Source: Batillaria attramentaria (Eukaryota > Mollusca > Gastropoda > Batillariidae). From it: a stretch of DNA of 64,000 bases. The translations under genes and the position numbers were made by a program. Positions 23,431 to 63,274 of the stretch are shown piece after piece. The stretch spans positions 984,186 through 1,048,185 of the forward strand of contig JACVVK020000207.1 in NCBI GenBank assembly GCA_018292915.2, in the 5' to 3' direction. Positions within the stretch are counted from its first letter, which is position 1, and the number at the start of each line of letters is the position of its first letter. Under the pieces are notes generated by a model, which was given only the letters and a program-made list of their open reading frames with translations, was not told where the DNA came from and searched no databases.

Positions 23431-23520
23431 CAGAGTAAAAATATTGGCATGGAGTAGGTTGAAATGTCCATCAAAATGTTGCATTTTCAAATCCTGCTGG
23501 AGGTTTATAAAATGGAATTA
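23431..23520 (+). other. Deletion scar where the nuclease exon should be
   Basis: Alignment to gene 2 is lost after CATGGCAACAG (about 23,432) and resumes at TTTATAAAATGGAATTAACG (about 23,510). About 80 bp here replace about 1.65 kb of gene 2 (45,995-47,650) that includes the exon at 46,792-47,508. Confidence 0.75.
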
Positions 23521-32962: not shown

Positions 32963-33061
32963 GTACGGGTGGTTGGGAGGGGTGATAATGTGGGTGTGGG
33001 TGAGGTGGGTAGCATGTCAGGTCCAGATAGTATTATAGTAATATATTGTGACTTTGTGCAG

Positions 33062-33190
33062 GGACTGGAACGGAAGGTGGTCGTGTGGATGTCGAGATCA
33101 CAGTATAGTGATGGTGATGATTCACTCTTTGGCCGACTCTGGGCCATGTCCCGTACTACATCACAACTTATCTGGGTAAAGAGATCCTAA
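33062..33190 (+). CDS. Gene 1 exon 9 (helicase motifs V and VI, stop)
   Basis: After TTTGTGCAG it reads GLERKVVVWMSRSQYSDG, then LWAMSRTTSQLIWVKRS and TAA at 33,188-33,190. GLE-K-VVVW matches motif V, and AMSR-x4-QLIWV matches motif VI with its arginine finger, as at the end of SF1 helicase cores. An alternative donor (TCTGG, GTAAAG at 33,175) could join a further exon at 36,061. Confidence 0.7.
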   Translation, partial: GLERKVVVWMSRSQYSDGDDSLFGRLWAMSRTTSQLIWVKRS

Positions 33191-44232: not shown

Positions 44233-44773
44233 AATGGCCACAGTTCTCTGCTAAAAATACAAAATGGAAAAGTGCAAAAGTAACCCTGAAGGAAAACGCC
44301 AACAGTTCCGGGACAGTCAGTGTAGTCGGTGTGGACAGGTCGGCCACGATACAGAAAACTGTCCCGAATGTGATTTTTGCGAACAGTTCGGCCATGATGC
44401 AGACAACTGTCCCATATGTGGTTTGTGTAGACAGTTCGGCCATACTGCAGACAGTTGCCCCAATGCTTGTCGTCGCTGTAGAAAGGTCGGACATACTGTG
44501 AAAAACTGTCTTCTCGATTGTCGTCAGTGTGGACAGTTCGGTCATACTGCATCAGACTGTTCCTATGTTCTGTGTCATCGCTGTGAATGGCGTTGCCATA
44601 GTGCACCAAGCTGTCCCAGTTTCCCGTGTCATCGTTGTGGACAGGATGGCCATGTTGCTTCAGAGTGTCCCGACAATATCTCCAGCATCCCACCCTCGGC
44701 GTCAGTGCAGAGCCAAAGCCAGCAACAACCATCCTCCCACACTGGAACACAAGGGCAGCAGCGAACATGTCAG
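44233..44773 (+). CDS. CCHC zinc-knuckle exon of gene 2 (7 knuckles)
   Basis: ATG is at 44,264 after the acceptor TCCACTCAG. Seven CCHC knuckles (C-x2-C-x4-H-x4-C) follow the same 19-residue head as gene 1. Knuckle 6 (CHRCEWRCHSAPSC) keeps the pattern but has Cys in place of Gly before His. A Ser/Gln-rich tail ends at TCQ, and the exon leaves at phase 0 (CAG, then GTTTGT). If intron retention occurs, the frame ends at 44,785 (173 residues). CCHC knuckles bind single-stranded RNA or DNA. This short array probably shows the ancestral state. Confidence 0.85.
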
Positions 44774-45223
44774 GTTTGTGGATAATACCTTCAGCTTGTT
44801 TTAATAATGATTACTATTATTGTAGTTATACTCCATTCTTGAAGTTCGAACGGCCAAACACTGTGCCCCTATGGAATTAACAACATAATGTCGTTTTGAA
44901 ATTTCTGACCCGTGGGGTTATGCTCAAACCACCTGGCTATGCGCAAAAAGGCTGTCTCCGTAGCAACAGTCTGTCTGTATTTTGTTTTCTGTTCGAAAAA
45001 ATCGTCACGGAGGACTCTGTGTGGTAAAGTCGAATGGCGGACAAAACCCGTGGATTAAACGAATGGTTCAAACATTACACACTGTCTTGGGGAACAGTGT
45101 AGCAAACTTAATCAATGAACGATGTATGGACATTTTGTCAGTGAGATCGACAATGTCGTACATATCTAGGCTGTGAGATCAGTATGGGTGTTTCCGAGCT
45201 CCGAGTTTTAACAGAGTTCATTT

Positions 45224-45355
45224 CCAACTGACCAGCTAGTATGTTAAAGGGACAGTCCAACTGACCAGCTAGTATGTTAAAGGGACAGTCCAACTGACCA
45301 GCTAGTATGTTAAAGGGACAGTCCAACTGACCAGCTAGTATGTTAAAGGGACAGT
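45224..45355. repeat. 33-bp minisatellite, four exact units
   Basis: The unit CCAACTGACCAGCTAGTATG followed by TTAAAGGGACAGT is repeated four times without change. Gene 1 has a single diverged unit at about 23,077-23,107. Confidence 0.95.
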
Positions 45356-45422
45356 CTGTAGGATGTTTAGGCTCACACATCATTCTGAGCTGTTTCGTGA
45401 TGTCTAGCATCACACCACTTAG

Positions 45423-45718
45423 CATGTACGCCATGCAGAGTCAACGGATTCTTTTAAAACTGCTTTGAAATCCTATTTCTTCCGGCTGTACTATACAGAC
45501 TAACTTCTTACCTTTACTGTCACCATCATTGTCATTTTACGATGTCATGTTATTGTCAAGATGTATCATAGCTGTGTGTATGTAACGTGTATGTGACGTC
45601 TGTTTCACGTGTATGTAATGTGTAATGTATTTTTCATTTGTATCTCATGTGTATGTATTGACACTATATTATTGTGAGGCGCCCAGAGCTCCAGCAGCAA
45701 ATCCTCATTATTATTATT
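45423..45718 (+). mobile_element. 5'-truncated L2/CR1-type LINE 3' end
   Basis: The first bases encode a peptide like STDSFKTALKSYFF, the usual end of an L2/CR1 reverse-transcriptase ORF. A 3' UTR with GAGGCGCCCAGAGC and a short (ATT)n tail follows. ACTTAG flanks it on both sides (45,417-45,422; 45,719-45,724), and gene 1 has one ACTTAG at 23,167-23,172. Confidence 0.85.
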
Positions 45719-46200
45719 ACTTAGACACCTGCACAGTGACACCATCTCAAATGCTGGCAATGAGCCAACAGAAACGTACTCGTACTCACTAACGCGGCTA
45801 ACACGCTGAGCGATACTGCTGTATATTCAGGCGTAGAATTTGAATGCTTGGCTGCGCACGCAAAGTCAGTATAAACAACAGTTTCGCATTAAGAGCTCTA
45901 CTCATCATCACAATAAGAATATTTCCAGCGTACAGGCGCACTCACAAGCGAAACTGTTCCAAAACATAAGTTGGCTTAGTTACCATGGCAACAGTCCGCT
46001 TAAACTAAAGGCAGGTGATATGTATTCCCTACACATGTATCTGTCTGTCACCTGACAAAGTTCATGTAGTATAAAAGGTGGCCTATCAAATAATGGCTGA
46101 AAACGGTCACACACGTTTGAAATGACAACAATCACCTGTTTCGACTTTCGTACTAAACTCTTGTGAGGTACGCGTGATTCAGAATATTTAGCAGTTATTC

Positions 46201-46325
46201 CCCCATCAAGCTGTGGCGTACCGACGACTATTTTGATCCAAGACGCAAATCAACCCTGAGCTTTAGCGAAGGGTTGATTGCGTCTTGGATCAAAATACGA
46301 CTCGGTATCCCACAGCTTGATGGGG
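46201..46325. repeat. Long near-perfect hairpin (55-bp arms)
   Basis: CCCCATCAAGCTGTGG... at 46,201-46,256 pairs with 46,271-46,325 (GGGTTGATTGCGTCTTGGAT... ending TTGATGGGG), with a 14-bp loop. One or two bulges are seen. It is probably a fold-back element. Confidence 0.85.
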
Positions 46326-46791
46326 TGTAAATGCTTTATCATCCTTTTTGGGGCCAGTTTATGGTATACTGTATTTTGAACGTTTATCCTAGTAAAAACT
46401 GACAGTCGACAGCGCCTGCACATGGCAGACGAACGAGTTTGTACGTCGGCAGAGCACGACGCTGACAGAATAAAGTGCGCCTTTTTATGCTGGCAAGACG
46501 GTGTCAGTCAATTCACTCATGAACTCAAATCCAAACAAAAACACAAGTTTTAAACTTCCAATAAAGACGTTCCCTTCTTCTAAGTGAACGGGAAATGATA
46601 AACTATGCATCGCTTTCATTTTCCGTGAATCTTCAGAGAAATCATCCGACCTGGGAAAGTTTTCTGTCTGTGGAAGACATGGTCGTGCATTGAATCAAAG
46701 CAACTAAACTACTCACGTACTGTAATCTGGTAAAAATGTGCAACAGAACCTGCTGACTTCATGTAATTAATTTCTGTTTTTGTAGACACAG

Positions 46792-47508
46792 GTTCCGATG
46801 TCATGGCGGCAGTGTGTGAGAGAGTGGTATCCAGACCTGTTACAGCGGACACACTTCCTGCCGCACGTCTACATGCACCGCGTGCAGCACGAGACACAGG
46901 TGGTGGCTGGGCTGGACGTCAACGTCCCACAGTCAGCACAAGATGAACGTCCCGCGGGCGTCAGTAACGTGTTGTCCACGAGCGATGTACGGGATGACAG
47001 GGCGCAGCAACACGTCCTCCATTGTCTCCAGGCCATGAGCCACTCTCAGAGTGACGTCATGTTCGTCTTGTCCCAGATGGGTTTCGGCGATTATCTCGAC
47101 GGCCCGTGTTATGCCGCCGCCTCATCCTCATTACCGCGACCCGTGGACTTGAAGAAGCAACAACTGGATGCTGGAGACTTTGATGTCCTCATCATACATA
47201 GACAGTACGGCATACTGGCAGGTGAGATCAAGTCTGTCGGGGCCACCGCTACAGAACGGGGATTGACTCAGCAGCAGCTACAAGATGAAGTGCTGGCTAA
47301 ACTGAGGAAAACCCTGAACTGTAAGAAACCAGGACAGAAAAAGCCGAAAAAACAGAAACCTGGCCAGTTGGGAAAGGCACGTGAAGTCCTGCGTCACGTG
47401 ACAAGTGACCTGCCGCAGCCTCCGAGAGTGCGTGCGACGTTAATATTGCCTTCTGTTTCCAGCGCCACATTGCGGGCAGCACTGACTCAAGATCCGCTCA
47501 CTAGAGAT
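46792..47508 (+). CDS. Gene 2 exon 2: NERD/PD-(D/E)XK nuclease-like domain
   Basis: Acceptor GACACAG, donor GAGAT followed by GTGAGT. It is 717 nt, phase 0 at both ends, and joins the knuckle exon as Q-VPMSWRQ. From residue 65 of the exon peptide there is a helix (AQQHVLHCLQAM), then GDFDVLIIHRQYGILAGEIK at about 126-145. Asp127/129 and Glu143-x-Lys145 fit the D...(D/E)xK catalytic core of the NERD/PD-(D/E)XK nuclease fold. A following Gln-rich helix (LTQQQLQDEVLAKLRK) fits the next core helix. A Lys-rich loop (KKPGQKKPKKQKPGQ) may bind nucleic acid. Bacterial NERD domains are often joined to SF1 helicases, as here. An acceptor 6 nt upstream (TGTAG) is also in frame. Confidence 0.75.
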
Positions 47509-47800
47509 GTGAGTTGATGGCTCTCTCTGTCTCTGTCTCTCTCTCTCTCCGTGATCCGTAGCAGTAACATTTCACTAGTAACTGTTCATCTAGTGTTTGT
47601 TGTACGCAAAAATAGCGTGAAAGCATGAAGATTGATATTTATTGATATTTATGGATGTTTATAAAATGGAATTAACGATAAAGGCAGTAGAAAGGGGTTG
47701 CATTTTCATGAGCCATAATTTATTTCGTGTTTCGTCTTTCTTCGTTTTAAGTTTTCAACTGACCTGCACTTTTGTATAGATTTAACTGTGTCTGCTACAG
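47509..47800 (+). other. Short intron with CT run
   Basis: A CTCTGTCTC run is at 47,521-47,550. Similarity with gene 1 resumes at about 47,650. Confidence 0.7.
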
Positions 47801-48006
47801 GCCCTGTGTAGAGAGCTGGATATTCCACTAACTGCCGACCCTGTGGACTACTGTTTGTGTTCTGACAACATGTCGGACGCTGGCACGCCACAGCAAGTCA
47901 CTGATGACGTCATGATAGGTCTGTGCAGTTGGTGGACACGGTGTGTAGCAGGGGCCGGGCCGGACCCCGCCATGACGGATGACGTGTATGAGGACCTTGT
48001 GGCCAG
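47801..48006 (+). CDS. Gene 2 exon 3 (linker)
   Basis: Acceptor TGCTACAG, donor GCCAG followed by GTAGG. It is 206 nt, phase 0 to 2. It encodes ALCRELDIPLTADPVDYC, then CSWWTRCVAG and DVYEDLVAR. It differs from gene 1 exon 3 by only a few bases. No domain is recognised. Confidence 0.75.
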
Positions 48007-48244
48007 GTAGGATCCAACTCACTGTGAATGAAATCAGCTACGTCATTCGTCGAGCTATGCCTGATGATATGTTTCCATATTACTGAAGTGTTTTAACCTA
48101 TCATGGTTTGGGCCTAATGTCTTGCACCAGTTGGCTTCTGATAAACCTTTGGATGTCATGGCTGTTTGTGTAAGAACGATGTCATCATATTTTGCTCTTC
48201 TGTCATTCGTGTTATTTTGCTTTCTTTAAAACGAACGTGAGCCT

Positions 48245-48300
<56 letters not shown>

Positions 48301-48416
48301 TCCAGACAGCGGTGGAAGTTGTAACACAAAATTAAGTGTGTTAGTTTGAGATTATTTCACACATCAGGCTTTCCTGTTCTCTCCTGTGTCATACCATTCC
48401 ATGGATTTATTGACAG

Positions 48417-48555
48417 ATTTGCGGGTCCGGCGACTGTAGTGAGGATCTTCTGTAAGACCGAGCCCCGGTTACACGTGACAGACTTACGTTCTGCCGGACA
48501 GTTCGTCTCCCATGTCGCCGACAGGATGTCTATAGTCGCTCTTTATCCCCAGCAG
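48417..48555 (+). CDS. Gene 2 exon 4 (Q-motif lead-in)
   Basis: Acceptor TTGACAG, donor CAGCAG followed by GTAAAA. It is 139 nt. The peptide runs FAGPATVVRIFCKTEPRLH to VALYPQQ. The last residues with the next exon (LYPQQVDLVNQAP) look like an SF1 Q-motif. Identical in protein to gene 1 exon 4 as far as I can see. Confidence 0.75.
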
Positions 48556-48664
48556 GTAAAAATCTATCCAGTCTTATCCAGTGTTCACTTATAAAGCGCA
48601 GAAGTAGTCTGCATTTCCCGCTATCAACATCGTCTCTTTATCTCCATCAGGTGATACTTTACTG

Positions 48665-48779
48665 TATATTACCGGCTTGTTCTCTACCCCTGTCACGTGA
48701 TTCTTCACTCTGTATTACCGGCTGTCAGCAGTGACTCTCTACCCCTGTCACGTGATTCTTTACTCTGTGTATGTGTTGC

Positions 48780-48833
<54 letters not shown>
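48665..48833. repeat. Short 55-bp repeat block and (GT)n
   Basis: About two units of the CACGTGA-bearing repeat, followed by one GT run (48,784-48,833). It is the contracted counterpart of 24,534-25,022. Confidence 0.85.
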
Positions 48834-48840
<7 letters not shown>

Positions 48841-48971
48841 GGAGTATGCGCGCTATGTGATTCATTATTATTAAGAAACAAGTCTAGATTCCCCTCAGTG
48901 TACACTCTGTAATTTATTATAACAGACATAATTGTCACGTGACATTTTCTCCACCCTTCGTGTTTAATCAG

Positions 48972-49309
48972 GTGGACCTCGTCAACCAGGCGCCTGACCT
49001 TGCCTATCTGGCCGGACCGCCAGGGACAGGCAAAACACTCACTGCAGTAATTATGTCCCTGGAGTGGCTGCGGCAACACGGGATCGTGGACATCCTAAGC
49101 CGAAATATGCGGAGCCTTGCCGCCGCCCACCTGATCAAGCAGCAGCTGGAGGAGACGGCCCGGCTGATACTGGGAGAACAAGCGGCCAGTCGTGTCCACC
49201 TTCATGACAACCTGAAGCAGGACGGAGCTGTGGACAGACTAGTGGCGACGCTGACGGCCAGACCAACATCCGACGTATGTCTCATCGCTGATGAAGCGGA
49301 AGGCTTTGG
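48972..49309 (+). CDS. Gene 2 exon 5: SF1 helicase motifs I, Ia and II
   Basis: Acceptor TTTAATCAG, donor TTTGG followed by GTGAGT. It is 338 nt, phase 0 to 2. It reads LAYLAGPPGTGKTLTAVIMS, motif I/Walker A of the GPPGTGKT type found in Upf1-like and related SF1 helicases. SLAAAHLIKQQLEETA fits motif Ia, and DVCLIADEAEG is motif II/Walker B with catalytic Glu. The open frame, unlike gene 1, is unbroken across motif I. The protein should bind and hydrolyse ATP if the missing C-terminal exons are supplied. Confidence 0.85.
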
Positions 49310-49671
49310 GTGAGTTGTTTGTTTGATCGGACTGGATTTGTCTGTGTGTTATTTGTTTGTATGTTTGTTCATGTGTTCACTGGTTTGATTCGTGCGTTGT
49401 TTGTTTGTGTGTTTGTTTGTTTGTTCGGATATTGAATGGTTTTGTTCACAAACCAAACCAAACCAAACCAATCAACACCCGAAAACACATACAAACAAAC
49501 AAACAAACAAACAAAAACAAAACATTGATATTAAAGAAAAATATGCGAAGCGCGCAAACAGAAAAGAGAAAAAAATAATACATGTACATTGGCAGCAGCA
49601 AAAGGAGCTTTAATGAAACACAATGCACTCGGAGAACATTCACAAGTGTGGAAAACTGTACAGCGTAATGA

Positions 49672-49838
49672 TTCACACACACACACACACACACACCACA
49701 GAGTTTGTTATATTCACATTAATTTATAATTTAATTTTTATACTATTCTGTTAATTGTTATATAATATACATTTAGCCAAGATCATTAATCCCTTTGAAG
49801 GCCGGACCGTGCCCTCTTCGACCTGCAACACATAATAA

Positions 49839-49906
<68 letters not shown>

Positions 49907-50552
49907 ACATCACACATCACCCCGGCCTCGTCAGTCTTCCTCCACCTTCTCACAAATCAAACACATAGCATGCCACCCACTCATACTACTGTCAACATGG
50001 ACAGATAGACGCGAGGGTATGTAATAGCCGCTGGTTCCTGTGAACTTGTGGTAGGCCTTGAGGGAAGAGATATGTCGAGAGAAAAGTACATGAGAGATAA
50101 TGGCACACCAAAGCGACATAATTATCGGCACCGTTGCAGACAGAATAGTAGACTCCTACCCTTCCCTAGGTTGGGGTGTCTCCTCTGGTGTAGGGGGGGT
50201 GGGGGGGAACAAACGTCTTTTTTCCCAAACGTCGAAACGCGCACTACTGCGGACGAAAAAACCTGTTGGTGGCTGGCTGGCTTAAATCTGAAAGTGGGTC
50301 AGCGACCAAGTTATTACCACCACCCCTCTACGGGCTCCTGCCGTCCGCGGCTTTTGGCTGCCGCCCCTCTGCTCGAAGCCGCTGGACTTATTGTGTGCTG
50401 TTACGTAATGGCGTGCCGCGAGCGAGAGAGGGGGAAACAAGGGGATGGTCACGCGCGCTCACCACCCCTGGACGGGTTGCAGACTGAAGGTCTGTCAGTT
50501 TTATCTTGTCGCTCTCTCCAATATAAATCCCTTTGAAGGCCGGAGCGTGCCT

Positions 50553-50590
<38 letters not shown>
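49672..50590. repeat. CA microsatellites and paired flanking repeats in intron 5
   Basis: CA runs at 49,672-49,695, 49,840-49,903 and 50,559-50,590. GGCCGGANCGTGCC (49,800; 50,538) and TTCCTCCACCTTCTCACAAA (49,937; 50,618) repeat around them as in gene 1. No gene. Confidence 0.85.
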
Positions 50591-50592
<2 letters not shown>

Positions 50593-50917
50593 ATCACACA
50601 TCAGCCCTCGTCATTCTTCCTCCACCTTCTCACAAATCAAATACATAGCCTGCCACTGACTCATACTACTGTCTAATAATAATAATAGTGGAGATTTTTA
50701 ACGCGCCTAACCCAGGGGCTGGCTCTAGGCGCTTTACAATATAACGGGGGGGGGGGGGGGGGGGGGGGGCAGCAACAACCCGCGAAAATAAAGACTGATA
50801 AAATAAAAAACCCCGCATTGTCTCCCTGCAGGCAACAGAGACCATGGCAGTAAGAGAGCGGGGACCCCAGCATCCTGCCCAACCACAGGATGTGGGGAAC
50901 CCAACCCAAATAAACCA

Positions 50918-50956
<39 letters not shown>

Positions 50957-50987
50957 GTACAAGACAATAAAAAGCTGGGTTGAATTA

Positions 50988-51739
50988 CTGGGAGGAGAAG
51001 AGGTGCGTTTTCAATTTAGCTTTGAATGTTGCCAAGGACTGAGCGTGGCGGATGTGGGAGGGAAGGCTGTTCCATGTGACTGGGCCAATGTACGAAAAGG
51101 CTCGTTGGCCTTGGAACTTTCGACGACGGACGGGTACACGGAGTAGGCGAGTGTCGGCGGAAGAGCGCAAGTTACGGGATGGCGTGTACAGCTGTATTAG
51201 AGAGGCCAAGTAAGGTGGAGCTGAACCAGTGATGATATTGTAACAAACAGTGGCAATTTTGTAGTGGATTCTGTTTTGGATGGACAGCCAGTGGAGATCA
51301 GACAGCAGGAGAGAAACATGTTGACGTTTTGGTGCTCTGAAGACGAGACGGGCGGCACAGTTCATGACTCTTTGAATTTTTTCCAGAAGATTTTGAGGAA
51401 GACCGGCAAGGAGAGAATTGCAGTAGTCTAGCCGAGAGAGGACAAGTGAAGTCACCAGGGTCTTTGTGGATTCAGTGGTAAGATACTGCCTAATGGACGA
51501 GATACGCCGAAGCTCAAAGTAGGCGCACTGACAGACCTTGTTCACCTGTTCTCTCATCGACAGGGTGTTGTCAAAATGACCCCTAGATTCCTTGCGGAAG
51601 CCGAAAAGGGAATGTCAGTCTGTCCAATCCTGAGGGAGTTGGGCAGATCTGAACATTTTGCCGAAACCAAAAGGGCCTCCGTCTTGTCTTCGTTTAACTG
51701 CAGTTGTGGAGAGTCCATTGTTTCACAGTGTGGGTGCAT
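50988..51739 (-). pseudogene. C-terminal part of the same LINE ORF (frame-shifted)
   Basis: Two successive frames (51,739-51,554 and 51,557-50,985) carry LNEDKTEALLV, ARNLGVIL, then LVLSRLDYCNSLLAGLPQ and a final WNSLPSHIRHAQSLATFKAK. These are standard C-terminal motifs of L2/CR1 ORF2. At least two indels separate the frames. Confidence 0.85.
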
Positions 51740-53566
51740 GACTGCATGTCTGTAAGCAGGGTGTCAATCTGTTGGCGTGTGGAAGAACCATACAGCTCAG
51801 TATCGTCAGCAAACATATGATGCGAAATACTGTATTTGTTGACAATATCGGAAAGGGGTTGAGTGTAAAGTAAAAACAAAATGGGGCCCAAAACCGACCC
51901 TTGTGGGACGCCATACACCAGTTTGGTTGAGTTAGACTCGTGGCCAAGGACGGAGACTGACTGCTCCCTGTCTTGAAGGTAAGACGTGAAGAAGGAAAGC
52001 GCAACGCCACGGACACCAAACACTCGCTCCAGACGACACAACAGGATGTCATGGTCTATGGTGTCAAAGGCGGCACTTAAGTCGAGGAGTGTCAGAACAG
52101 AAATTCGGTCGGAGTCGGCAGCCGTCAGGAGGTCGTCGAAGACGCGAAGAAGAGCGGTCTCAGTGCTGTGTTTAGGCCGGTATGCGGATTGGAAGACATG
52201 CCACAAATTATTCTGATCCAGATGAGCAAGCAGCTGGGAAAGAACTATCTTCTCGAGTAATTTTGAAAGGAACGGGAGGTTGGAAACGGGTCGGAAATTT
52301 TTTAGAACATTGGGATCCAAAGATGGTTTTTTGAGGAGCGGCTTGACGATAGCTTTCTTCCAACACTTAGGGACACAGCCGGAGGACAAGATATCATTAA
52401 AAAGATCTGTAAGAGAAGGCAGAACTTCCTCGATGCATTCGAACAACAGTGAGGTAGGAATGTAGTCAAGATCGCACGTTTTGGGGGACATGCTGAGGGC
52501 AATCTTCCGGACAGCTTCCTGTGAAACAACATCGAAGCATGTAAGTGGTGTGCCTGAAAACATGCGGTCTTGGAAGGCAGGCTGTACGGAAGATGACATC
52601 TGCGAATCAAGAGCGATTCGGAGTGAAGAGATTTTTTCACTGAAAAAGTCTGAGAATATCTGCGCAAGTTGATGAGGGGGGTGAATAGAGGGTAATGGGG
52701 TCTGTGTACACTTCCCCATCAGATTACCAGTCAGCCTGAACAATTCCCTGCAGGTAGTGGCCGCCGCCACTTTAGCGCTGTAAAACGCTGTCTTGGCGTT
52801 CTGAACGAGAGCAGAGATTTTATGTTTGACAGAATTCATGATCTCTCTGTGGACCGTCAAACGCGTGGCCAGCCAGCATCTCTCTGCTTTACGCCTTTCC
52901 CGCTTGAGGGCACGCAACTCGGAACTGACAGAGGGGTACCACGGGGAACTACGACGCTGCATGATCTGACGGCGAGACGGAGGGGCATGGGTATCAAGGA
53001 CAGACCGTAGAGCGGACATCAGATCATCAGCAGTGGTGGGGATTAAGCCTGACAAAGCAGCAGCAACATCAGTACGGAACTGAACGTGATCTATGTTCCT
53101 GAGATTTCTCACAGTCTGAAAGACAGGACGGTGAGGGGGCTTGGCCGCGTCCAGGTAACACATCACAGCGGCGTGGTCCGATGACAGGGCATGGTGCACG
53201 GAACAGGACCTAAACAGTCCATCTCTCTCCCTGTAGATGACGGGATCCAGCGTGTGGCCACGGCGATGAGTGGGGACGTCGACAGCTTGAGACAGGTCAA
53301 ACATCTGGAGTAGCTGAACAACTCTCGCAGTGACAGGGTCAGAGGGACAATCAAAATGAACGTTCAGGTCGCCCGTTATCAACAACTGACCTGAGAGCAA
53401 GTTACAGTGTTCTAGAAAGTCACTGAACTCGGACAGGAAAATACTGTGTGAAGATTCGTTCTTTCTGCTAGGGGGCGGACGATACATGCAGAAGATATTG
53501 ACAGGCCGAGGAGATCTGATAGTCAACTGTGCCAGTTCAAAGGACGTGTGTGACCTCGTGACCTAC
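51697..53566 (-). pseudogene. LINE endonuclease and reverse transcriptase (L2/CR1 group)
   Basis: The open frame covers about 610 codons from 53,526, with coding similarity upstream to 53,566 (SFELAQLTI). The APE endonuclease C-terminal half shows ITGDLNVHFD, RRGHTLDPVI and SDHAAVMC. The reverse transcriptase shows NFRPVSNLPFLSKLLEKIV, LTLLDLSAAFDTIDH (motif A), GVPQGSVLGPILF (motif B) and HMFADDTELY (motif C, catalytic Asp pair). The sequence style is that of L2-type elements. Frame breaks near 51,700-51,740 and 51,560-51,580 separate it from the C-terminal part, so it is inactive. Confidence 0.9.
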
Positions 53567-54175
53567 ACAAAACAACCCCCAAAATCAGCAGCTGCTTTTG
53601 CCGAGGACACTTTATTCCGACCATAAAATGCCGAAATGAGGGGAAAGTCAATGAGGGAAAATGTTCCATAGTGTACACCAGTTCTGGGGGCAAGACTGAA
53701 AGACGCCACGCTGCAGGGGTGGGCTGCCCCCCATAACAAGAGGGTGAGGGGGGGGGGGGCACAGCAGCTGTGACAATGGTCGCGTCCCATCTCCGCCTGC
53801 AGAATTGTGCCTACTGGTACAAAATTAATAACAGTGGAACAGTAATCTGATTATCGGAATAGGTGTAATAATGGTGTCATAGTATTAGATAAGCACAGTT
53901 GCCAAAATAATGATTGTGTCCCGTCGCCGCCCGCCTACTATCAGCGATGGAGGAAAACAGCACTCCGAAACTGGAGAGTAGTTTCTTAGTAAATGCGCAG
54001 TAGCCAGTAGCAGTAACCGAGGCAGTCGTGTCAGCGCTTTTAGCCTGGTTTTATGTGAGAAGTACTGTAACAAAGGAGGGTTGTGCCCCCTCCTGTCAGC
54101 GTGAAGGTCTGTAAAGTCAGTAATGAAGATAAAAGGAAACAGCGATCCGAGTAATTGGGACATATTTATGTATAG
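53567..54175 (+). other. Intron 5 sequence shared with gene 1
   Basis: It aligns with 27,872-28,470. It resumes exactly after the LINE insertion. No gene. Confidence 0.8.
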
Positions 54176-55598
54176 GTATACATGGGAAAGTCGGCAAATA
54201 TGGAACACCTCAGGGAGAACGCTTCCCGTGTCTCAACCATAAACTGATTCAGGTGTCATTCTATTCAGAAATGGTTAAGGTATCAACCAGACCCAGGTAT
54301 GAAACGAAATCTCTTAATCTGCAGGAACTACGATGCTTGAAACAAAAAAGTGGGTTTGTTCCATATTTGACCCATGGTCGTATAAAATGGAACACCGAGG
54401 AGTCAAATAAGGAACGCCGTTCCATATTACCCGACCTGTGTTCCATTTTATCGCCATTGAGCTATGAACATTTTAAACTTTGGATTATGCAGCTTGAACG
54501 TTTAACCACTATTCTCTTCTTGTCTCTTGACATTTTGGTGTCACTGAGGGTGTAATGGAGGCAGAGATGTATGCTCACTCACGCATGGAAGGTGCGTCAT
54601 TCAGCTAAAATCAGTGGAGTAGAACGTTCTTTGAGTGAAACACTACAAGAAAAATACTACAAAAAAAAAAAAAAGAACACAATGACAGATCAATGATTTA
54701 ATCCACTTTTATTATTCAAATGGAAAAAGAAATAGGAACACAGGATACTCTTTCGTACTTCAAACAACAATAATCTAACCAGTGCACTTCCGCACACGAA
54801 ACTGAAGAAAACGAGTGCCCTTCCCCTCCTTTGTTACCTCCTAGCCCTTTCTTACTTAAGAACGACACCAGAATCCCCCTTCTCTGAAATTCCAAATCAC
54901 GGGGGAAATAAAAATACACATTGTAAATACTGTGCAGACTATTAACTTTCCATGCCCTCCCCTACCCCTCCTCTCTCTAACAAACGACTGTGAAATGCTT
55001 CTGTCTGAGCTTTTCATGCCGAAACCAACAAAAATTCTCAACAAATATGAAAACAGAAAGCATAATCAGCAATGAAATAGTTAACCCAAATACAAATAAA
55101 ACACTCAACCTTTCCGTCTGTTATCAGATCAGTATCTCTTACAGTGTTCCTGCCTCTTCACATGCCGTCACTGATAACAACGAAAACATTAATTTCATTC
55201 TGAATGTTTTAAATCTTCCTTCCTCTGCCCCTCCCCCTTCCGCGGCTCGCACCTCTTCCCATCGTTCTGTTAGCTGGTTTCTTTTTTTCCCAGCAGTGTT
55301 TGTTTGTATGGGGTCGATGTGAGTATTTCAGTTGTTTTTCCTCTCTTTGGTCCTGGACGAAGTGTACGGGGTGGCGAAATCTCAGAGACGCTGACATAGG
55401 CAGATGGATTGTTCTGAGATTCAGTCTCAGCAGATTGCTCAGGAGTTTCATCATCATGACTGGTTTCATCCTGGACTAGGCAGTCGTAGTGACCGGCATT
55501 GTCCCCAAACGAGCGATAGATCACCCTGACCGTGTCTGTATTTGCTCCCGCAAACTCCGTCTGGTACACGAACACCCGACCAGTGCGCCCATTAACAT
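54176..55598 (-). mobile_element. Transposon fragment with transposase-tail-like ORF
   Basis: This 1.4 kb is absent from gene 1 (28,470-28,487). The left border starts near CATGGGAAAGTCGGCAAATA and TGGAACACC, which resembles the ends of pogo/Tigger elements. On the minus strand an ORF runs in from the right border and ends at 55,270. It has VRVIYRSFGDNAGHYDCLV (OTU-like or unknown), an acidic Gln/Ser stretch, and PKRGKTTEILTSTPYK, the kind of tail found in Tigger-type transposases. The right end has no matching inverted repeat, so the element is probably truncated there. Family uncertain. Confidence 0.5.
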
Positions 55599-57174
55599 GA
55601 TATGAATGGGAAATGGCACGACGGATGGTTGTGTCCCGTTGCCGCTCGCCAATAGGTCTGCACTGGAGAAAACAAGGTCGACAAGAAGCTGCGGACTAAA
55701 ATAAACCGACCTGGAATAGACACATGTTATGTAAGCGTATTATCAAAGAGTAATGTGGTCGCGTCCCATGGGCGCTGGCCAGGCTGTTTGTATTAGTGAA
55801 ACAGAAATGAGGGAAAACCCACATCTGCAAAAAGACGTGAGCATAGCATCATGTCATAGCATTACCTGAGCACACGTAGACAAAGGTGTCATGTCCCATC
55901 GCTGCCTGTCACAATGTCCGTGCTGGTCACTGTAAGGCTGCAAGGAAACGGCAATCCGAAAACATTAGGGGTACTTAGGCATAGGTCCTAGGCACGCCCA
56001 AACGCTGGGAGGCGTGCACACTTGGGAAACTGTAAACCCGCCTGGAGACGGGTCGACCAATGGTTCGTATGCGAAGACGCGGGCAAAGACGTAACTGTGC
56101 CTAGAGGTGCAGCAAGTCGGTGTAACGAAGGATGGTCTGGTCAAGTGGTCATGTCCCCTCCCTCACCCCTTGTCCAGAAGTCCGCCTAGCAATAATAAAG
56201 GTGAGATGTCACGGCGATCTGAATAAATGGTACATGTAAGCGTAGGGGCAATGTATAATGCCAGCAAATGAATCCTGCCGGAGCGCCAAATTCCAATGGG
56301 ATCAATGTTTTAACAATAATTATATGGTACATTTTTTTCACTGATCCGTAAATAAAAACCGTTTACAAGGGCTGCAGCAATAAAATGGCCTTTCTCTGAT
56401 ACACCGTTCGTAACGAACGTTATCATGTGGCAAGGTAAGGAAATCAGCAAATGATGCCGTTACATTAGTTGAAAACAGAACCATACTGACGACGGTAAAA
56501 GACATGGGTGTTTAAATGAATGATTAGCAGCCACAAAACAGAATGTTTTCTTGTGAGACTGCCATTTAGAAGGGTAGAAACGTTTAGCTTATGATCTGTG
56601 TCAGGTATACTTAAGGTCACTAAAGCTGTCTGTTTTAAAATTTTACACTGGCATTTTCTCGGAATCTACAAATACCAGAGGATTAACTTTACGGGTATAC
56701 AGTATGCTCCACGTATAGCGGCCATGGGTTATACTTGACTCCGTTTATACCGAAATACACCTGTAGCAAATCATTTCCCGGCCGAGGGCCTTCTTTAACA
56801 TGACTAAAAACTCATCGGATAGCGCGGCCATCGATTACACCGGACATCGGTTTGACCGGACACGTTTTCGCGTCCCCAGGATCCCTTTTCTCTTGATATA
56901 TCGGACGGCGCAGTCGTTGCAGTCAACGGTTATACCGGACGCCACTATTCCGGTCATGTTTTCTTGTCCCACCTCCGCTTATAACGGACGCAGCGCGCGT
57001 GCGACAAGGCACGAACACGGACTGCTGCATGAATCTAGAGAAACGATGATGACCTAATTCTAGGAAAATTGCTCGCGTTAGCTTCAGGTCAAGTTTCGGT
57101 TTTGATTTAGCTTTCGCCTGGCACTTGTCATAAACAAAACCGCGAACTGAAATGATTTAAAACAACCACGCATG

Positions 57175-57221
<47 letters not shown>

Positions 57222-57403
57222 TGCGTGTGTGCGTGCGTGCGTGCGTGCGTGTGTATGAGTGTGTGTGAATACAACATTTTACAGTGAATTTTATTTTATT
57301 TTATCTTATTGGTTGATCAATGTCAGTTCAATAGTTGTTTACAAATTTGATTTAAATTATCTTGTAAATACTAAAAGATACACACGCACGGACGCGCGCG
57401 CGC

Positions 57404-57448
<45 letters not shown>

Positions 57449-57600
57449 AAGAGAAAATGTCTTCAATCCGGAAAATGTCCCTAAGGCCTTATGTACGGAA
57501 ACATCGGCTATACCGGAAAATTTCCGTTAAATACGGAGACATTGGATTTAACGTCCACCAGGACGAAAGTTGCCCCTATATCCGATGTTTTGGTTTTTGG
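55599..57600 (+). other. Intron 5: shared part then gene 2-only part
   Basis: 55,599-56,275 aligns with 28,488-29,135. 56,276-57,600 is mostly without counterpart. It includes an R2 fragment (56,615-56,690), a (GT)n run (57,178-57,255) and (GA)n (57,404-57,443). Repeated TATACCGGAC-like words occur at 56,830-57,540. No gene is supported. Confidence 0.65.
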
Positions 57601-58470
57601 GAAACTTTAACGTTGGCCATTTATCCGAAACAACCAACAGTAGAGGCAGCAAACAAGGCATGATGATAGACAGCAATGAGACCTACCTTTTTGAATGACC
57701 GTGGCTGAAGGTCAAGGTCATTAAAGCCGTGTGGTGGGAATTTTAACATTACCGTTTTCGGAGGAACTACAAATACTAGAGGCGTCAAACTTGACATAAT
57801 GATAGACATTGAGGAAATCTCATTTGAATGGGGGAGCCGGGGTAGCCGAATGGTAGAGCGTTGGTCTTCAGATGCTCGGGTCGTGAGTTCGTATCCCGGC
57901 TGGGGCAAAATATTTGTTCTGGATTTTTCATCGTTGCCTTGTCTTTCATATCACCCGTATGTGGTGGAAAAGGACGTTAACCCCACAAACACCCCCCCCC
58001 CCCCCACACACACACACACACCTCATTTGAATGACCTTGATCTAGCAACGTCCCTAAATCTATTGTTACTTATTCAGTCTAAATGACTCCCTATAAACAC
58101 AAGACAAAACACAAATACAAATCACATCTCTATCGTTATCTCGACTAAGCAAGATTTCTAACTAGCATTACGAATCAACACATCTAATCATAATATACGA
58201 AAGGAGAATCCTGCTCTATTGCCTACAGATCTCTACGATGATTCCTCGTGGCACGCGTTGTCCAGCCACAGACAAGAAGCAGGTTCTGTGAGGGGTCTGC
58301 TGCAGCCGGTTCAAACCCTAAACTTTCCTTGCACGGCACACAATGACTGGAATACGGTTCTGTTGCTATTCGTCACGAACACAGTTCTGCTTGGCGGAAT
58401 TACTGATTTTACTGACAAAACCAGTCAACATCCAGTTAAACAAAGAAAGAAACAAAAAGACACACATCAA
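57601..58470. repeat. R2 (TCAAGGTCA) repeats, gene 2 copy
   Basis: It aligns with 29,541-30,170 of gene 1, interrupted by one SINE. GAAGGTCAAGGTCATTAAAG lies at 57,706. Confidence 0.75.
57831..58021 (+). mobile_element. tRNA-derived SINE (family A), copy 4, with exact 12-bp target duplication
   Basis: CTCATTTGAATG stands on both sides (57,819-57,830; 58,022-58,033). Gene 1 has it once (29,751-29,762). The 3' tail ends in a C-run and (CA)n. Confidence 0.95.
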
Positions 58471-58683
58471 ACAAGGAGGAACGGCCCCGTCCTACAAAGT
58501 TGTTTCTCCAAACTTCATTTTATTTTGTCTGTTTTGTTGTTATTGTTGCCGGTTTTCCCCTCTCCAAGTTCTACCAATGACACTAGATCCTCTACGACCT
58601 CGACCGATTAGCCACGTGACTGGGGGTGGGGCCGGGTGGGGGAAGAAGGGAGAGAGAGAGAGAGGCAGAGAGAGAGGGTGGGT

Positions 58684-58846
58684 GGGTGGGTGTTTAGGAG
58701 TTTAACGTCTTTTTCCCCCACATAAGGGTGACATCAAAGATGGGGCAACGAGAAAAAGGCCAGCACAAATATTTGGCCCCAGCGGCCGGGATTCGAACTC
58801 TCGGCCCAAGCATTGAAACGCTCTACCATTCGGCCACCCTGACTCC
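58684..58846 (-). mobile_element. tRNA-derived SINE (family A), copy 5, inside Y
   Basis: This is the same insertion as 7310-7485, in the same position of element Y. It is read on the minus strand with box B GAGTTCGAATCCCGGC. Confidence 0.85.
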
Positions 58847-58856
58847 CCAGAGAGAG

Positions 58857-60195
58857 ATTCAGATTCAGATTCAGATCATTTATTGCGTAGGCGTTATGCC
58901 CTTTGCAAAGGGGGTAGGGGGGAGGGGGCATTACATAGCCATGCAGAAATACGTCACACATCAAACAGACGACATTGTGCGACAAGGATGCCAAGTCACA
59001 GAAAGTTCGTTCAGACTGCGACATTAGAGTCCGTGAAAAAACCCACAATAATCATGTGCGTGAAAAACACGTGTCCGGATAGGTGAGACAACACAACGGG
59101 AGTCTAACTGACAGCTGCACGTGTGGTACACTATTGTTCTGGATTTGTTCTAATGGTCAGCCAAGGAAGTATCTCACAGCACCCATAATAGTGTGCATAA
59201 TGGTCAGTCCTTGCTCAATCTGACACTGAATTTTGCCCCGATCAGCAGGAACCCAGAGCAGCATCTTGTAGGTGATGTGACGTTCCTCTTCTATCATCTG
59301 CGTGATGTCCCGTTTGACAAACCAGTAAAAAGACGGCTTTTCTCTTGCAGCAGACCACTTGAGCTGAAATACAACGTCATCACTTTCACAAATCAGAGTG
59401 TCTAGACTGTCGTTAGAACGATCGCGAAACACGGTACGGAAACTAACATTTCTTGTTTTGTCTCTGAGGTTCCGTTGAAGTGATCTGTCTGTCAGTTCAG
59501 CCACGTAGTCCTTGATAGTGGTGACACTGTAACCTGCTTCACGCACTCTCTCAAGCCGCGGCTCTTCATCGTCAGCGTCACTCACACTAGGTTGGTCTGT
59601 CCCACTGTTCTTTTCTGGTAAATGAACTTCAGCAGGACTAACTTCAGCCGCTGTCACTAGGTCAACGCCTGTACACAACACACTAGCGTCAGCTGATTCA
59701 CAGCGGGTTTCACGTGCACGTGTCTGTGTTGGTGTGTCGCCTGAATGGTTTGGCGTGTCACTGTGCTCATAAAAACAAGCAGTTGGTGGCGTAGGCATGA
59801 ATAAAGCTTGTGAGTGTTCAAAATCCAAATCACCATCACTTGCCTTCCCACTCTCTTGTTTCGCAGCAGCTTTCTTTTCTGCCCGTTTCCTGTCGCGGTT
59901 CACTTGACTCGGTGGCTTCCTTCGATAGTACACAGGACTGTTACCGGTATTCGCCATGTTGTCTGTAGCTGAGCCGGTTTTCAGTCGAATGACCACGACC
60001 GTACTGTCACCTTCTCCGGTGATTTTCCAAGAGGAGAGTTGGTTGTGCTGAAGCAGGGCCCCCAGAGCGACTTCCAGTGTTGTTGGAAAACCGACAACAG
60101 GCATCGTGAAGGATAATTTTGGTAAAATAAGTCCAAAATATCAACAGTGGAGAGAACTTCCTGCCCAGCATGCACCTCGCCCACGTGAAAAAAAA
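58857..60195 (-). mobile_element. Retroposed 1.34-kb unit with 15-bp target duplication
   Basis: ACTCCCCAGAGAGAG flanks it exactly (58,842-58,856; 60,196-60,210). On the minus strand it starts TTTTTTTTTCACGTGGGC, carries a 315-codon ORF, then AATAAATGATCTGAATCTGA, an AATAAA signal with a short (ATCTGA)n tail. The long duplication and repeat tail show target-primed insertion. The long Y copy has no insertion there. Confidence 0.85.
59157..60104 (-). CDS. 315-aa ORF of unknown function in the retroposed unit
   Basis: The start MPVVGFPTTLEVALGALLQH is 91 bp from the 5' end of the inserted unit. The N-terminal ~50 residues look like a compact domain (SSWKITGEGDSTVVVIRLK). A basic stretch follows (YYRRKPPSQVNRDRKRAEKK), then an acidic, Ser/Thr-rich middle. 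The last ~130 residues are again structured (VTTIKDYVAELTDRSLQRNL, then FYWFVKRDITQMIEEERHIT). There is no reverse transcriptase. It may be an ORF1-type nucleic-acid-binding protein of a LINE or a retrocopied host mRNA. The frame is intact. I cannot assign a family. Confidence 0.6.
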   Translation of the reverse strand: MPVVGFPTTLEVALGALLQHNQLSSWKITGEGDSTVVVIRLKTGSATDNMANTGNSPVYYRRKPPSQVNRDRKRAEKKAAAKQESGKASDGDLDFEHSQALFMPTPPTACFYEHSDTPNHSGDTPTQTRARETRCESADASVLCTGVDLVTAAEVSPAEVHLPEKNSGTDQPSVSDADDEEPRLERVREAGYSVTTIKDYVAELTDRSLQRNLRDKTRNVSFRTVFRDRSNDSLDTLICESDDVVFQLKWSAAREKPSFYWFVKRDITQMIEEERHITYKMLLWVPADRGKIQCQIEQGLTIMHTIMGAVRYFLG

Positions 60196-60202
60196 ACTCC
60201 CC

Positions 60203-60237
<35 letters not shown>

Positions 60238-61198
60238 AGACGTCAGTTCCGTGAACTAAACATTTGACGTCACCTTCAGGCAGGTCGTCATACAGAGAGA
60301 GAGAGAGATGACGTCAATTCCAATTCCGTGAAGTAAACTTTTGACGTCAGCCTCTAGCACTGAGATCGTCTGAGGATGCTTGTTCATGTCTTGTGATTTC
60401 CCTGTTGGTTTTGTGACTTCTCCGACTGAATTATTTTTCACATGAAATCTGGAAGATCTAGAGGGCTGATGAAATGTCGGAAGCAGTGACGATACTTGCA
60501 GATTTTGTCTGTGAACCAAACATTTGACGTCAGCCTCACGCTCCTCGTCTGACAGATGATACTTCTACATATCTTGTGATTTCTTTGTTGCTTTTGTGAC
60601 TTCCCTGACTGAATTAATTTTTACATAAAATCTGGAAGATCTAGAGAGATGATGAAACGTGGACTTAAGTGCCTTGGATTGTACTTACGAAATTGCAAAA
60701 TTGGAACTTTTTTGACCGGCGCTTCTCGCAGAAATGTGAAAAATGTGTTTATCTAAAAGCTCTGCTATTCTTAATACTAAAGCTATAATAGTGCAGTAGT
60801 TCATGTCATATGTGCAGTTGGCATAAGTGACAAAAATACCGGAATGATGAGTAATTTGAAAGAGTCTTTTCATAGATATTTGAATTTATATGCAAACCAC
60901 CCCTAACTCGTAAATATTTTTCTTACACAAAACCTGTCAGAGCTACAGAGCTGTGCTACGAAAACAGGCAGTATAATTGGATGATCTTCCCAATTTCAGA
61001 AAATGAAGCCATTTGAACATTTTTTTGCGAAAAAATTCGTAACATGACCGATTTTTAAAAATCGGCGATAACTCTTTTGAAAATGCAGTAGGCTAAAAAT
61101 CGTGAAAGGTAGGTCTGGTAAAGGTGAATTCCCATTTTATCTCAAAGCAAAAAGGCCTCCAACGAGGTGGTTTAGGAGATAGCCATCATTACATCCGT

Positions 61199-61233
<35 letters not shown>

Positions 61234-61430
61234 TCACAACTCCCGCCAAAAAGAACGCAGCAGCTTAGTGTGCACGTAAGGTGTCTATGACGCAGATTTC
61301 GTTACGTCACTGTGTGCGTGAAAGCAAAGATCTTGGAAACATATGGTGAAAGTAAGTATTGTGTGGAGAAACGTCACAATCTTGTTTTGTATCACTGAAA
61401 CTTGCTGCTGCGCGTAGCAAAATCTGCCCC

Positions 61431-61530
61431 CATTCAACATCCGAACAAACATACATGAATGCTTTCTTTCGTGTTTCTGATATTTGGCTCACGTATGTAA
61501 CAGCGTGAGTCTATGTACTAACCCTCCGCC

Positions 61531-61597
<67 letters not shown>

Positions 61598-61789
61598 TGT
61601 TTGTCCGCAATGAATGTATAGAGAACCTTAACACTGGCATTTTCTCGGGAACTACAAACACCAGAGGCACCAAATTACAAGATGATAGACAACCACAAGA
61701 TCTATCCAGGGATTTCATTTTCAATGACCTGTGCTGGTGGTCAAGGTCACAGGAATAGAATGCAAAATTATAAACTCAATAGACGTACA

Positions 61790-61824
<35 letters not shown>

Positions 61825-61936
61825 GAGAGAGAGACGACGACGGAGGGTTAGTACATAGACTCCCATTGTTACACAAGGAAGCCAAAAACAAGAAAAAGTC
61901 GAACTAGACCATGCGGAGAACTTGCTAACCAAACGC

Positions 61937-61999
<63 letters not shown>

Positions 62000-62684
62000 C
62001 ATGGCGGTATTGCTGTAAGCATGATAATGAAAGGCAAGTTGTTTAGTATTGACGTCAAACTACTTGCTGAAATCGGAACTGTGGAGTGGGGGGGGGGGGG
62101 GGGGGTGTTTGGGGGTTTAACGTCCTTTTCCACCACATAGGGTGATATCAAAGACGGGGCAGCGATGAAAAAGCCAGCACAAATATTTGGCCCCAGCCGG
62201 GATACGAACTCACGTCCCGAGCAATAGAAGTCCAACGCTCTACCATTCGGCCACCCCGGCTCCGGAACTGTGGAGTATTGCGTCAGAGCTGAACAGATTT
62301 TACGTCACTAACGTTTGCGACCAGAAAACCGGTGGACGTTTTCTACTCTCCATGGACGTTAGAACTCAAGTCATGTCTTCAGCCTCAGTCTGCTAGTTGT
62401 CTGTCAGCTGTCAATACGCTGTGGGGTTTGTTGTTAGTGGACGCCAATTTTGCTGATTTTGTATTGTTTTGTATTGTTTCGAAAATTTCTTACAGTCGTG
62501 CAGTTGTTGATCTGTAGAGCAACTGCTAATATTTCTATGTTTATGAGTTCTTCATTTATTGGGATTTTTGTTTTGTTTTTGTGGTTGTTGTTGCTGTCGC
62601 TGGCGTGGTTGTCGTCGACGTCGTTGTCGCTCTAATCATTGTGGTCGTAGTATTGGTGGTTGTTGTAGTTATGGACTGGGTGAT

Positions 62685-62730
<46 letters not shown>

Positions 62731-62775
62731 TGGTTGACGTCATCCACTAACCGTCTTCTCCATTCTCTGTAACAG
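61431..62775 (+). other. End of gene 2 intron 5
   Basis: It aligns with 30,206-31,809. It contains R2 ends with (GT)n (61,532-61,596), R2 body (61,620-61,770), a (CA)n run (61,937-61,996), one SINE and a (CT)n run (62,688-62,727) before the exon. Confidence 0.75.
62088..62263 (-). mobile_element. tRNA-derived SINE (family A), copy 6, with exact 13-bp target duplication
   Basis: GGAACTGTGGAGT stands at 62,075-62,087 and 62,264-62,276. The gene 1 counterpart is single at 31,277-31,289 (two differences). The G-run at 62,088-62,104 is the reversed C-rich tail. Confidence 0.95.
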
Positions 62776-63128
62776 TGACCAACTGGATGTCCTGTACCGA
62801 GCGCTAGTCAACAACAAGAAGCACGTCAGGCTGTGGGCGGCAAGCGTACAGCCTGGCGACGAACCATATTGTCTACAGAATCACGTTCACAAGATGACAA
62901 CTCCCTTGCGCTGCCCCCCGTGCGTTGTGCGGGAGGTGGCGGAGGCAGACCGCATTAAGTCAGGAGACATCCCCGCTTACACAACACCAACGGCTCCCCT
63001 GCCAGCTGACGGACCGCCCGTCATCACTGTGAGCCACCAGGGACCCGGGCACGAGGAGAAGTATACACATGACTGTGAGGCGTGCGGCCGGGAGGTGGGA
63101 AGGATCCTGACACAGGTGTTACACGTCG
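62776..63128 (+). CDS. Gene 2 exon 6 (central helicase part)
   Basis: Acceptor TGTAACAG, donor CACGTCG followed by GTAAGT. It is 353 nt, same length and phase as in gene 1. It encodes DQLDVLYRALVNNKK, TTPLRCPPCVVREV and CEACGREVGRILTQVL. Protein changes against gene 1 are mostly conservative, while the length is fixed, which suggests past selection on the reading frame. Confidence 0.75.
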
Positions 63129-63139
63129 GTAAGTATGCA

Positions 63140-63174
<35 letters not shown>

Positions 63175-63199
63175 ATAATATACCTGTATTTTTTTTAAG

Positions 63200-63274
63200 G
63201 ACAAGGCAACACTTCCACTACTACAACTACCACAACAACGTCCTCCATCAGCACCGCTACAACGACCTCGCCCG
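63200..63274 (+). CDS. Gene 2 exon 7 (Thr/Ser linker)
   Basis: The acceptor here is TTTTTTTTAAG, weaker than the TTGCAG in gene 1 because the base before AG is A; the donor CCCG, GTAATC is kept. It is 75 nt and encodes GQGNTSTTTTTTTTSSIST-like low complexity. The weak acceptor may reduce splicing. Confidence 0.6.

Follow-up and report, generated by a model that had tools for sequence, protein, structure and literature searches.

A tandem gene array in a caenogastropod snail predicted to encode a zinc-knuckle protein with a NERD nuclease and an SF1 helicase homologous to bacterial NERD+UvrD

The shared ancestry of animal antiviral genes and bacterial defence proteins is a current question. The vertebrate Schlafen proteins of group III (SLFN) join a nuclease to a superfamily 1 (SF1) helicase and form an expanded, fast-changing family with antiviral members, and CNBP-type proteins carry tandem CCHC knuckles that bind single-stranded nucleic acid. 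In prokaryotes, NERD nucleases are described in conflict systems (PMC12458937, PMC12839542, PMC10952713), the last of these papers placing NERD in Mokosh type I and Nhi-like. Here we describe a gene of the snail Batillaria attramentaria that lies in a stretch of 64,000 nucleotides (the window) and belongs to an array continuing into the 220 kb that were read upstream on the same contig (JACVVK020000207.1). On the strength of sequence comparison we consider it probable that this tandem array encodes a protein with zinc knuckles and with a NERD nuclease and an SF1 helicase homologous to bacterial NERD+UvrD, and that the protein acts against foreign nucleic acid.

The gene in the window, copy B of the array, has six exons there, whose positions are collected in Table 1 with those of the other features. 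A sequence-only reading of the window had proposed that CCHC knuckles, a nuclease-like core and SF1 motifs I and II are encoded by exons joined across five junctions. The copy B exons do encode these elements, and all five junctions are GT-AG and in phase, with GT directly after each donor (44773, 47508, 48006, 48555 and 49309) and AG directly before each acceptor (46792, 47801, 48417, 48972 and 62776). The joined frame runs for 754 codons without a stop, as far as the donor GTAAGT at 63129. Seven knuckles are found in copy B by a strict pattern and 25 in copy A, the other copy in the window. The match of copy B to zf-CCHC (PF00098; C-x2-C-x4-H-x4-C) reaches 44.9 bits against a cut-off of 20.8, which is also exceeded in two further copies, c4 (37.3 bits) and c5 (48.1 bits). 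Against the seven exons of the same reading, copy B has six in the window, and an exon ending at 63274 is unsupported; an exon 7 is present in copies A and c2 to c5. Exon 7 of copy B is unseen and would lie beyond the contig end, since contig and window end together. Intron 5, between 49309 and 62776, is 13.5 kb long, which is credible because the same intron is short in c2 (938 bases) and in c3 (980 bases).

Five further copies on the same strand were found upstream by tblastn and, together with A and B, make seven in the array, a count that covers only the contig stretch read. The upstream 220 kb includes two runs of N (2,500 and 5,000 bases, 7,500 together), both inside c1, and no family match was seen in the 19 kb read before c1, where the upstream stretch reaches its limit. 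The knuckle exon comes first in all seven copies, and the NERD exon stands behind it in six. The knuckle donor CAG/GTTTGT is present in 7/7 copies, the NERD acceptor GACACAG in 6/6, and every copy has exons 3 to 6 bordered by AG and GT. The gene structure is more than chance, since the other array copies show the same succession of exons and the same splice sites. Exon 7 was found in five copies (A and c2 to c5), with none behind c1 and with B cut off by the contig end. Two copies are open through seven exons, c4 (1102 amino acids, aa; 18 knuckles) and c5 (941 aa; 8 knuckles), and their products carry NERD, Walker A, DEA, GLERKVVV and SRTTSQL in that order. Copy B is open across its six exons, up to the contig end. 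It had also been proposed that a paralogue supplies motifs V and VI, and the last exon of copy A indeed has sequences that match motifs V and VI of the relatives described below. Copy A is a decayed copy because its NERD exon is gone and five bases are inserted after motif I; as a working source of motifs V and VI it was ruled out as broken, and c4 and c5 were used instead. The remaining copies with an open first exon have 6 knuckles (c2) or the numbers already given (A, B, c4 and c5). The earlier description of the locus as rapidly changing and tandemly duplicated is therefore apt, there being seven copies, four with frame damage or exon loss, 6 to 25 knuckles and a mosaic pattern of divergence.

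CCHC knuckles are known from retroelement gag, the surroundings of the array are rich in repeats and an open reading frame (ORF) of LINE (long interspersed nuclear element) type lies in intron 5 of copy B, so that the array might be thought a part or relic of a mobile element in which gag-like knuckles were combined with a captured helicase and nuclease. We regard this as very improbable. The copies are split by introns, arranged in tandem and on one strand, and copy A contains nothing that matches the LINE ORF. No transposase, integrase or reverse transcriptase was seen within the gene frame, terminal repeats not having been searched for, and the arrays hold 6 to 25 knuckles against the one or two of gag.

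The reading of the array as encoding a NERD-helicase protein is carried by its comparison with bacterial proteins. A tblastn search of plasmids with one relative (P0024) gave E-values of at least 0.5 among the 30 matches listed and led to a genuine bacterial NERD-SF1 protein. Twelve such proteins from plasmids, made up of the starting protein and 11 of the 40 matches listed, were aligned; all 12 match Pfam NERD and, at E<=1e-5, the models NERD+UvrD and RTasNERD-Hel of PADLOC, which catalogues established and candidate defences against phages. The profile and PADLOC work used 22 of the 75 relatives then known. When the profile of these 22 was compared with the 12 bacterial NERD+UvrD proteins, hhalign gave 99.5% with an E-value of 1.1e-22 (for a single pairwise comparison, as with all hhalign E-values here) over 455 columns reaching from NERD to motif VI. 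Taken separately, the NERD domains gave 95.0% and the helicases 98.5%, against 0.6% at most for crossed domains or reversed profiles, and the addition of c4, c5 and B to the snail profile gave an E-value of 2.8e-23. The suggested relation to the prokaryotic pairing of NERD with a helicase is thus upheld by profile homology of both domains in the same order. The SF1 motifs Q, I, II, the motif IV region (LR), V and VI follow one another in order in c4 and c5 and are kept across the relatives. Solved structures matched by the exon-5 translation are P-loop ATPases, at E-values of 0.014 and up (best 60 of 101), as are the 12 matched by the family profile (best E-value 0.001). For the nuclease, the relative P0008 passes the Pfam NERD threshold (25.5 against 22.1 bits) and NERD is matched at E<=0.01 in 15 of 59 relatives, the Pfam counts over relatives given here and below covering 59 of the 75 then known. 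The core in exon 2 of copy B is predicted to be a NERD-type PD-(D/E)XK nuclease, an assignment that rests on the family profile because the exon alone has no Pfam match. A scan of prokaryotic genomes with patterns of the family gave 595 stretches, none of which was confirmed by tblastn. Bacterial NERD-UvrD genes adjoin DUF1998 genes in 4 of the 11 plasmid stretches L005 to L015 (L006, L008, L011 and L012), which suggests a recurring operon.

Three protein searches yielded 78 relatives, of which 72 are named, and all of the named ones come from five caenogastropod species: B. attramentaria, Pomacea canaliculata, Littorina saxatilis, Babylonia areolata and Nucella lapillus. Look-up confirmed four of these (all but N. 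lapillus) as caenogastropods, and N. lapillus belongs to the same group. In a quick tree of 68 rows, made from the window gene and 67 of the 78 relatives (the eight relatives P0068 to P0075 and three more that are shorter than 440 aa being omitted), the window gene groups with the Batillaria relatives P0022 (support 99), P0001 and P0003 (support 100). A clade of 19 Pomacea rows (support 100) and several Littorina clades point to lineage-specific expansions. The profile comparison, the 78 relatives and the tandem copies together back the reading of the domains as zinc knuckles, a NERD-type nuclease and an SF1 helicase. The RNA-binding domain KH_1 takes the place of the knuckles in two Pomacea relatives, P0015 (21.7 bits against a cut-off of 21.5) and P0054 (42.9 bits), and is matched at E<=0.01 in 4 of 59 relatives; this replacement fits a nucleic-acid-binding front end that can be swapped. 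Three other Pomacea relatives (P0030, P0032 and P0033) show a KH-like region before the NERD-helicase, with KH_1 below the cut-off. A further one, P0048 (LOC112574792 of P. canaliculata), has an Ig-like ectodomain, with Ig_3 and V-set under the cut-off, and a hydrophobic, membrane-like stretch followed by a NERD-helicase in which the NERD lysine is replaced; it is either a receptor-like member or a fusion of gene models. Two apparent fusions of the family, to an ion channel in P0001 and to an aquaporin in P0022, were rejected as biology and are taken as gene-model errors.

The residues expected of both enzymes are well conserved in an alignment of 79 rows (the 78 relatives and copy B; counts are on rows without a gap). 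Of the nuclease residues, D is kept in 74/77, E in 74/76, K in 71/75 and Q in 71/74, all four being present in copy B, and of the helicase residues the Walker A K is kept in 71/71 and D and E of motif II in 70/70 and 67/69. The snail helicases also carry an insert, GH(x)nC-x2-CG (P0005 residues 549-560; exon 6 of copy B), which lies opposite a gap in the bacterial alignment and is kept in turn (H 58/60, C 61/61, C 58/59); from its sequence, this insert may bind metal.

Comparison of the two open copies revealed a mosaic. The NERD cores of c4 and c5 differ by a synonymous divergence (dS) of 2.26 and a non-synonymous divergence (dN) of 0.37, with a dN/dS of 0.16 that indicates purifying selection. 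The dS is 0.035 in the first 44 codons of the NERD exon, 0.035 in exon 6, 0.069 in exon 7 and 0.117 in the shared part of the knuckles (dN/dS 0.24), with intermediate values in exons 3, 4 and 5 (0.34, 0.37 and 0.13). The NERD cores fall into two types, one in c1, c4 and B and another in c2, c3 and c5. Because the core has diverged so far while the flanks are near-identical, we infer that two long-separated nuclease versions lie in flanks homogenised by recent duplication or gene conversion.

The purifying selection on the NERD core would also suit a housekeeping enzyme of DNA repair or RNA turnover, Dna2-like or Upf1-like, that has merely been amplified, and repair enzymes, too, combine a nuclease with an SF1 helicase. 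This seems improbable to us, for the 72 named relatives of the 78 are confined to five caenogastropods with lineage-specific expansion, and a repair gene conserved as a single copy would not be expected to stand in tandem, to decay often and to diverge in a mosaic. Nor was any match to the Dna2 family seen in the Pfam scans of 20 relatives scanned singly, or in those of c4 and c5.

Several results weigh against the reading of the array as functional genes for a NERD+UvrD homologue. Four of the seven copies are damaged: besides A, there is a frame break in the knuckle exon of c1, one extra base in exon 3 of c2 and two extra bases in exon 5 of c3, whose knuckles and donor are in different frames; in both c2 and c3 the length of exon 7 also breaks the phase. 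Part of this damage may be assembly error. Recently separated pairs show little constraint, dN/dS being 1.40 between the helicase exons of A and B (not different from 1; p 0.43 on rounded counts) and 0.79 between B and c4, and the ratios in exons 6 and 7 of c4 and c5 are 1.34 and 1.30, where changes are few; for the knuckle exons of A and B it is 0.46 (p 0.08). Single proteins match the bacterial models weakly and in part, so that the snail family, for all its homology with the bacterial pair, is not a member by those models. Among the 22 relatives the PADLOC models were not matched over their full length (best 3.4e-6 and 5e-5, over partial stretches); c5 gave weak P-loop matches only, with NERD+UvrD and RTasNERD-Hel not listed; and hmmsearch with the bacterial profile gave only 12.8 bits for copy B and did not list c4 or c5. 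Pfam NERD (PF08378) was not matched in the NERD exon of the window or in c4 or c5. The snail family has WAAS in the region of motif III and shows no recognisable form of that motif as known from the bacterial relatives; DEAQ in motif II and D..Q in motif III are absent from the family, where DEA is followed by other residues. The first two protein searches scored the best 7997 and 7994 candidates by shared words and may hide distant relatives, and a third, with words taken from before the Walker A motif, scored 4084 candidates with no sign of such a limit and gave the same group only.

The remaining points against it concern the joining of the knuckle exon to the exons behind it. The two parts might be adjacent genes that were duplicated together, a single-exon CCHC-knuckle protein ending in VCG-stop and a NERD-helicase starting at 46798, working apart or paired. 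Read beyond its donor, the knuckle frame would stop at the fourth or fifth codon, and an in-frame ATG lies inside the NERD exon (46798 in copy B), its MSWRQ resembling the start of the relative P0077. This ATG has G at -3, a fair context, in c2 and c5, which slightly lowers the odds of one joined protein. The knuckle frame of copy A is still open despite the loss of the NERD exon and the broken exon 5. Knuckles are found by the strict pattern in just one of the 78 relatives, the Batillaria gene model P0026, though some models are cut at the front. P0026 has three CCHC knuckles ahead of the same NERD-helicase, spaced by 18 residues as are the last three of copy B, and so has knuckles within the same gene model; once the C, H and G positions are set aside, its likeness to the window knuckles is modest, being reached by 170 of 20,000 shuffles, and it falls outside the clade of the window gene in the tree. 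Since the ion-channel and aquaporin fusions are taken as gene-model errors, P0026 could be one too. Set against two genes, the donor is identical in 7/7 copies whereas the stop behind it varies (VCG-stop in c3, c4, A and B, VCVK-stop in c2, VCVQ-stop in c5), the exon 2 acceptor is kept in 6/6 copies and the knuckle-NERD junction, which lies at contig positions 929603/930787 in c4 and 958455/959221 in c5, keeps the phase in these two copies as well as in B and c2. The exon 2 ATG has C at -3, a poor context, in B, c1, c3 and c4, and in each of the five copies examined for it the start codon of the knuckle exon is flanked by A at -3 and G at +4. Weighing the conserved donor and acceptor, the ATG contexts and P0026 against the few relatives with knuckles, we find two genes unlikely, and the knuckle exon and the NERD-helicase exons are likely to be spliced into one protein.

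The proposed mechanism of such a joined protein starts with the knuckles, which would capture RNA or DNA in single-stranded form. Driven by ATP, the SF1 motor would then load on the captured strand and travel along it, and cleavage of that strand would fall to the NERD nuclease. Both the enzymatic activity and a foreign nucleic-acid substrate are putative, as is a defensive role directed at viruses or transposons; conflict of this kind would be suited to the array because it is multi-copy, decaying and recombining. It is quite possible that the genes form an innate immune family confined to snails and founded on a NERD-helicase of bacterial defence type, with a knuckle sensor of variable length that is swapped for KH elsewhere and with ancient nuclease versions standing side by side and recombining with shared flanks.

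If the reading is right, an animal family would have the whole plan of bacterial NERD+UvrD, a NERD nuclease with an SF1 helicase, amplified in Caenogastropoda. The array would lend itself to a direct test, as the c4-like and c5-like old nuclease versions both occur in intact copies with near-identical flanks, and the arrays of 6 to 25 knuckles are natural length variants of the putative sensor. In the literature collection searched, no report linked NERD and a helicase to a mollusc, a gastropod or a zinc knuckle, and none dealt with expansion of a caenogastropod gene family with a helicase.

Some other features of the surroundings were observed. A minisatellite-like repeat lies 5' of the knuckle exon at 17000-18480 (A) and 43432-43550 (B), and c4 and c5 likewise have repeats ahead of their knuckle exons. 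Another open frame in intron 5 of copy B, of 327 aa (59157-60140, minus strand), has no Pfam match and is perhaps derived from a transposon. Near the start of the window are a THAP zinc-finger domain (1697-2113, minus strand, 39.7 bits) and an open frame of 200 aa (3431-4033, minus strand) with a cysteine-rich tail and no Pfam match.

Table 1. Positions of the array features; window coordinates unless marked as contig coordinates.
Feature	Position	Strand	Remarks
Copy B exon 1	44264..44773	+	Start codon in good context (ACAAAATGG), 7 CCHC zinc knuckles, Q/S-rich linker, donor CAG/GTTTGT
Copy B exon 2	46792..47508	+	Conserved N-terminal region (WYPDLLQRTHFLPHVYM) and predicted NERD-type PD-(D/E)XK core (GDFDVLII..GEIK..GQLGK)
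Copy B exon 3	47801..48006	+	Nuclease-helicase linker
Copy B exon 4	48417..48555	+	Linker; Q-motif glutamine at its end (LYPQQ)
Copy B exon 5	48972..49309	+	SF1 motif I (GPPGTGKT), motif II (LIADEA)
Copy B exon 6	62776..63128	+	WAAS, LRCPP region, conserved GH(x)n C-x2-CG; donor GTAAGT
LINE-like endonuclease/reverse transcriptase ORF	51694..53562	-	In copy B intron 5; no match in copy A
Copy A exon 1	19031..20494	+	25 CCHC knuckles; start and donor as in copy B
Copy A site without NERD exon	23434..23497	+	B 45995-47651 without counterpart
Copy A exon 3	23647..23852	+	
Copy A exon 4	24270..24408	+	
Copy A exon 5	25164..25506	+	5-base insertion right behind motif I, frame broken
Copy A exon 6	31810..32162	+	
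Copy A exon 7	32793..33190	+	SF1 motifs V (GLERKVVVW), VI (MSRTTSQL), stop codon
Array copy c1	783282 on (contig)		
Array copy c2	838134 (contig)		
Array copy c3	near 900449 (contig)		
Array copy c4	928443 (contig)		
Array copy c5	957787 (contig)		
Array copy A	1003216 (contig)		
Array copy B	1028449 (contig)		

Among the known systems, the likeness to Schlafen group III lies in the helicase, the SLFN-g3 helicase model being matched at E<=0.01 in 9 of 59 snail relatives (best 4.5e-5); in exon 5 of the window it stays below the cut-off (18.3 against 24 bits) and it is not among the Pfam matches of c4 and c5. The predicted snail nuclease differs in being of the NERD-type PD-(D/E)XK kind and not the Schlafen core. 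Nhi, AbiO and Mokosh, which are bacterial defences with nuclease and helicase, give weak local matches around Walker A, the best stretches being limited to the P-loop region or its surroundings, and full-length agreement is absent. Compared with CNBP-type proteins, the knuckle array here is an exon before NERD and a helicase, and varies from 6 to 25 units between copies.

The closest system is bacterial NERD+UvrD (PADLOC C3a187, RTasNERD-Hel), for instance that of Paracoccus versutus pTAV4 (L001:3842-5563), which has the same order of NERD followed by a single SF1 helicase. Without exception the 12 bacterial proteins have the D, ExK and Q of the nuclease, the Q motif, Walker A, DE, the GL of motif V and the R of motif VI, all of which are conserved in the snails. 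The snail proteins differ in matching the bacterial models weakly and partially, in being without DEAQ or a recognisable motif III, and in that the array gene is split into exons; to the shared plan they add the GH(x)n C-x2-CG insertion in the helicase, a conserved N-terminal region and, in some, a front end of knuckles or KH.

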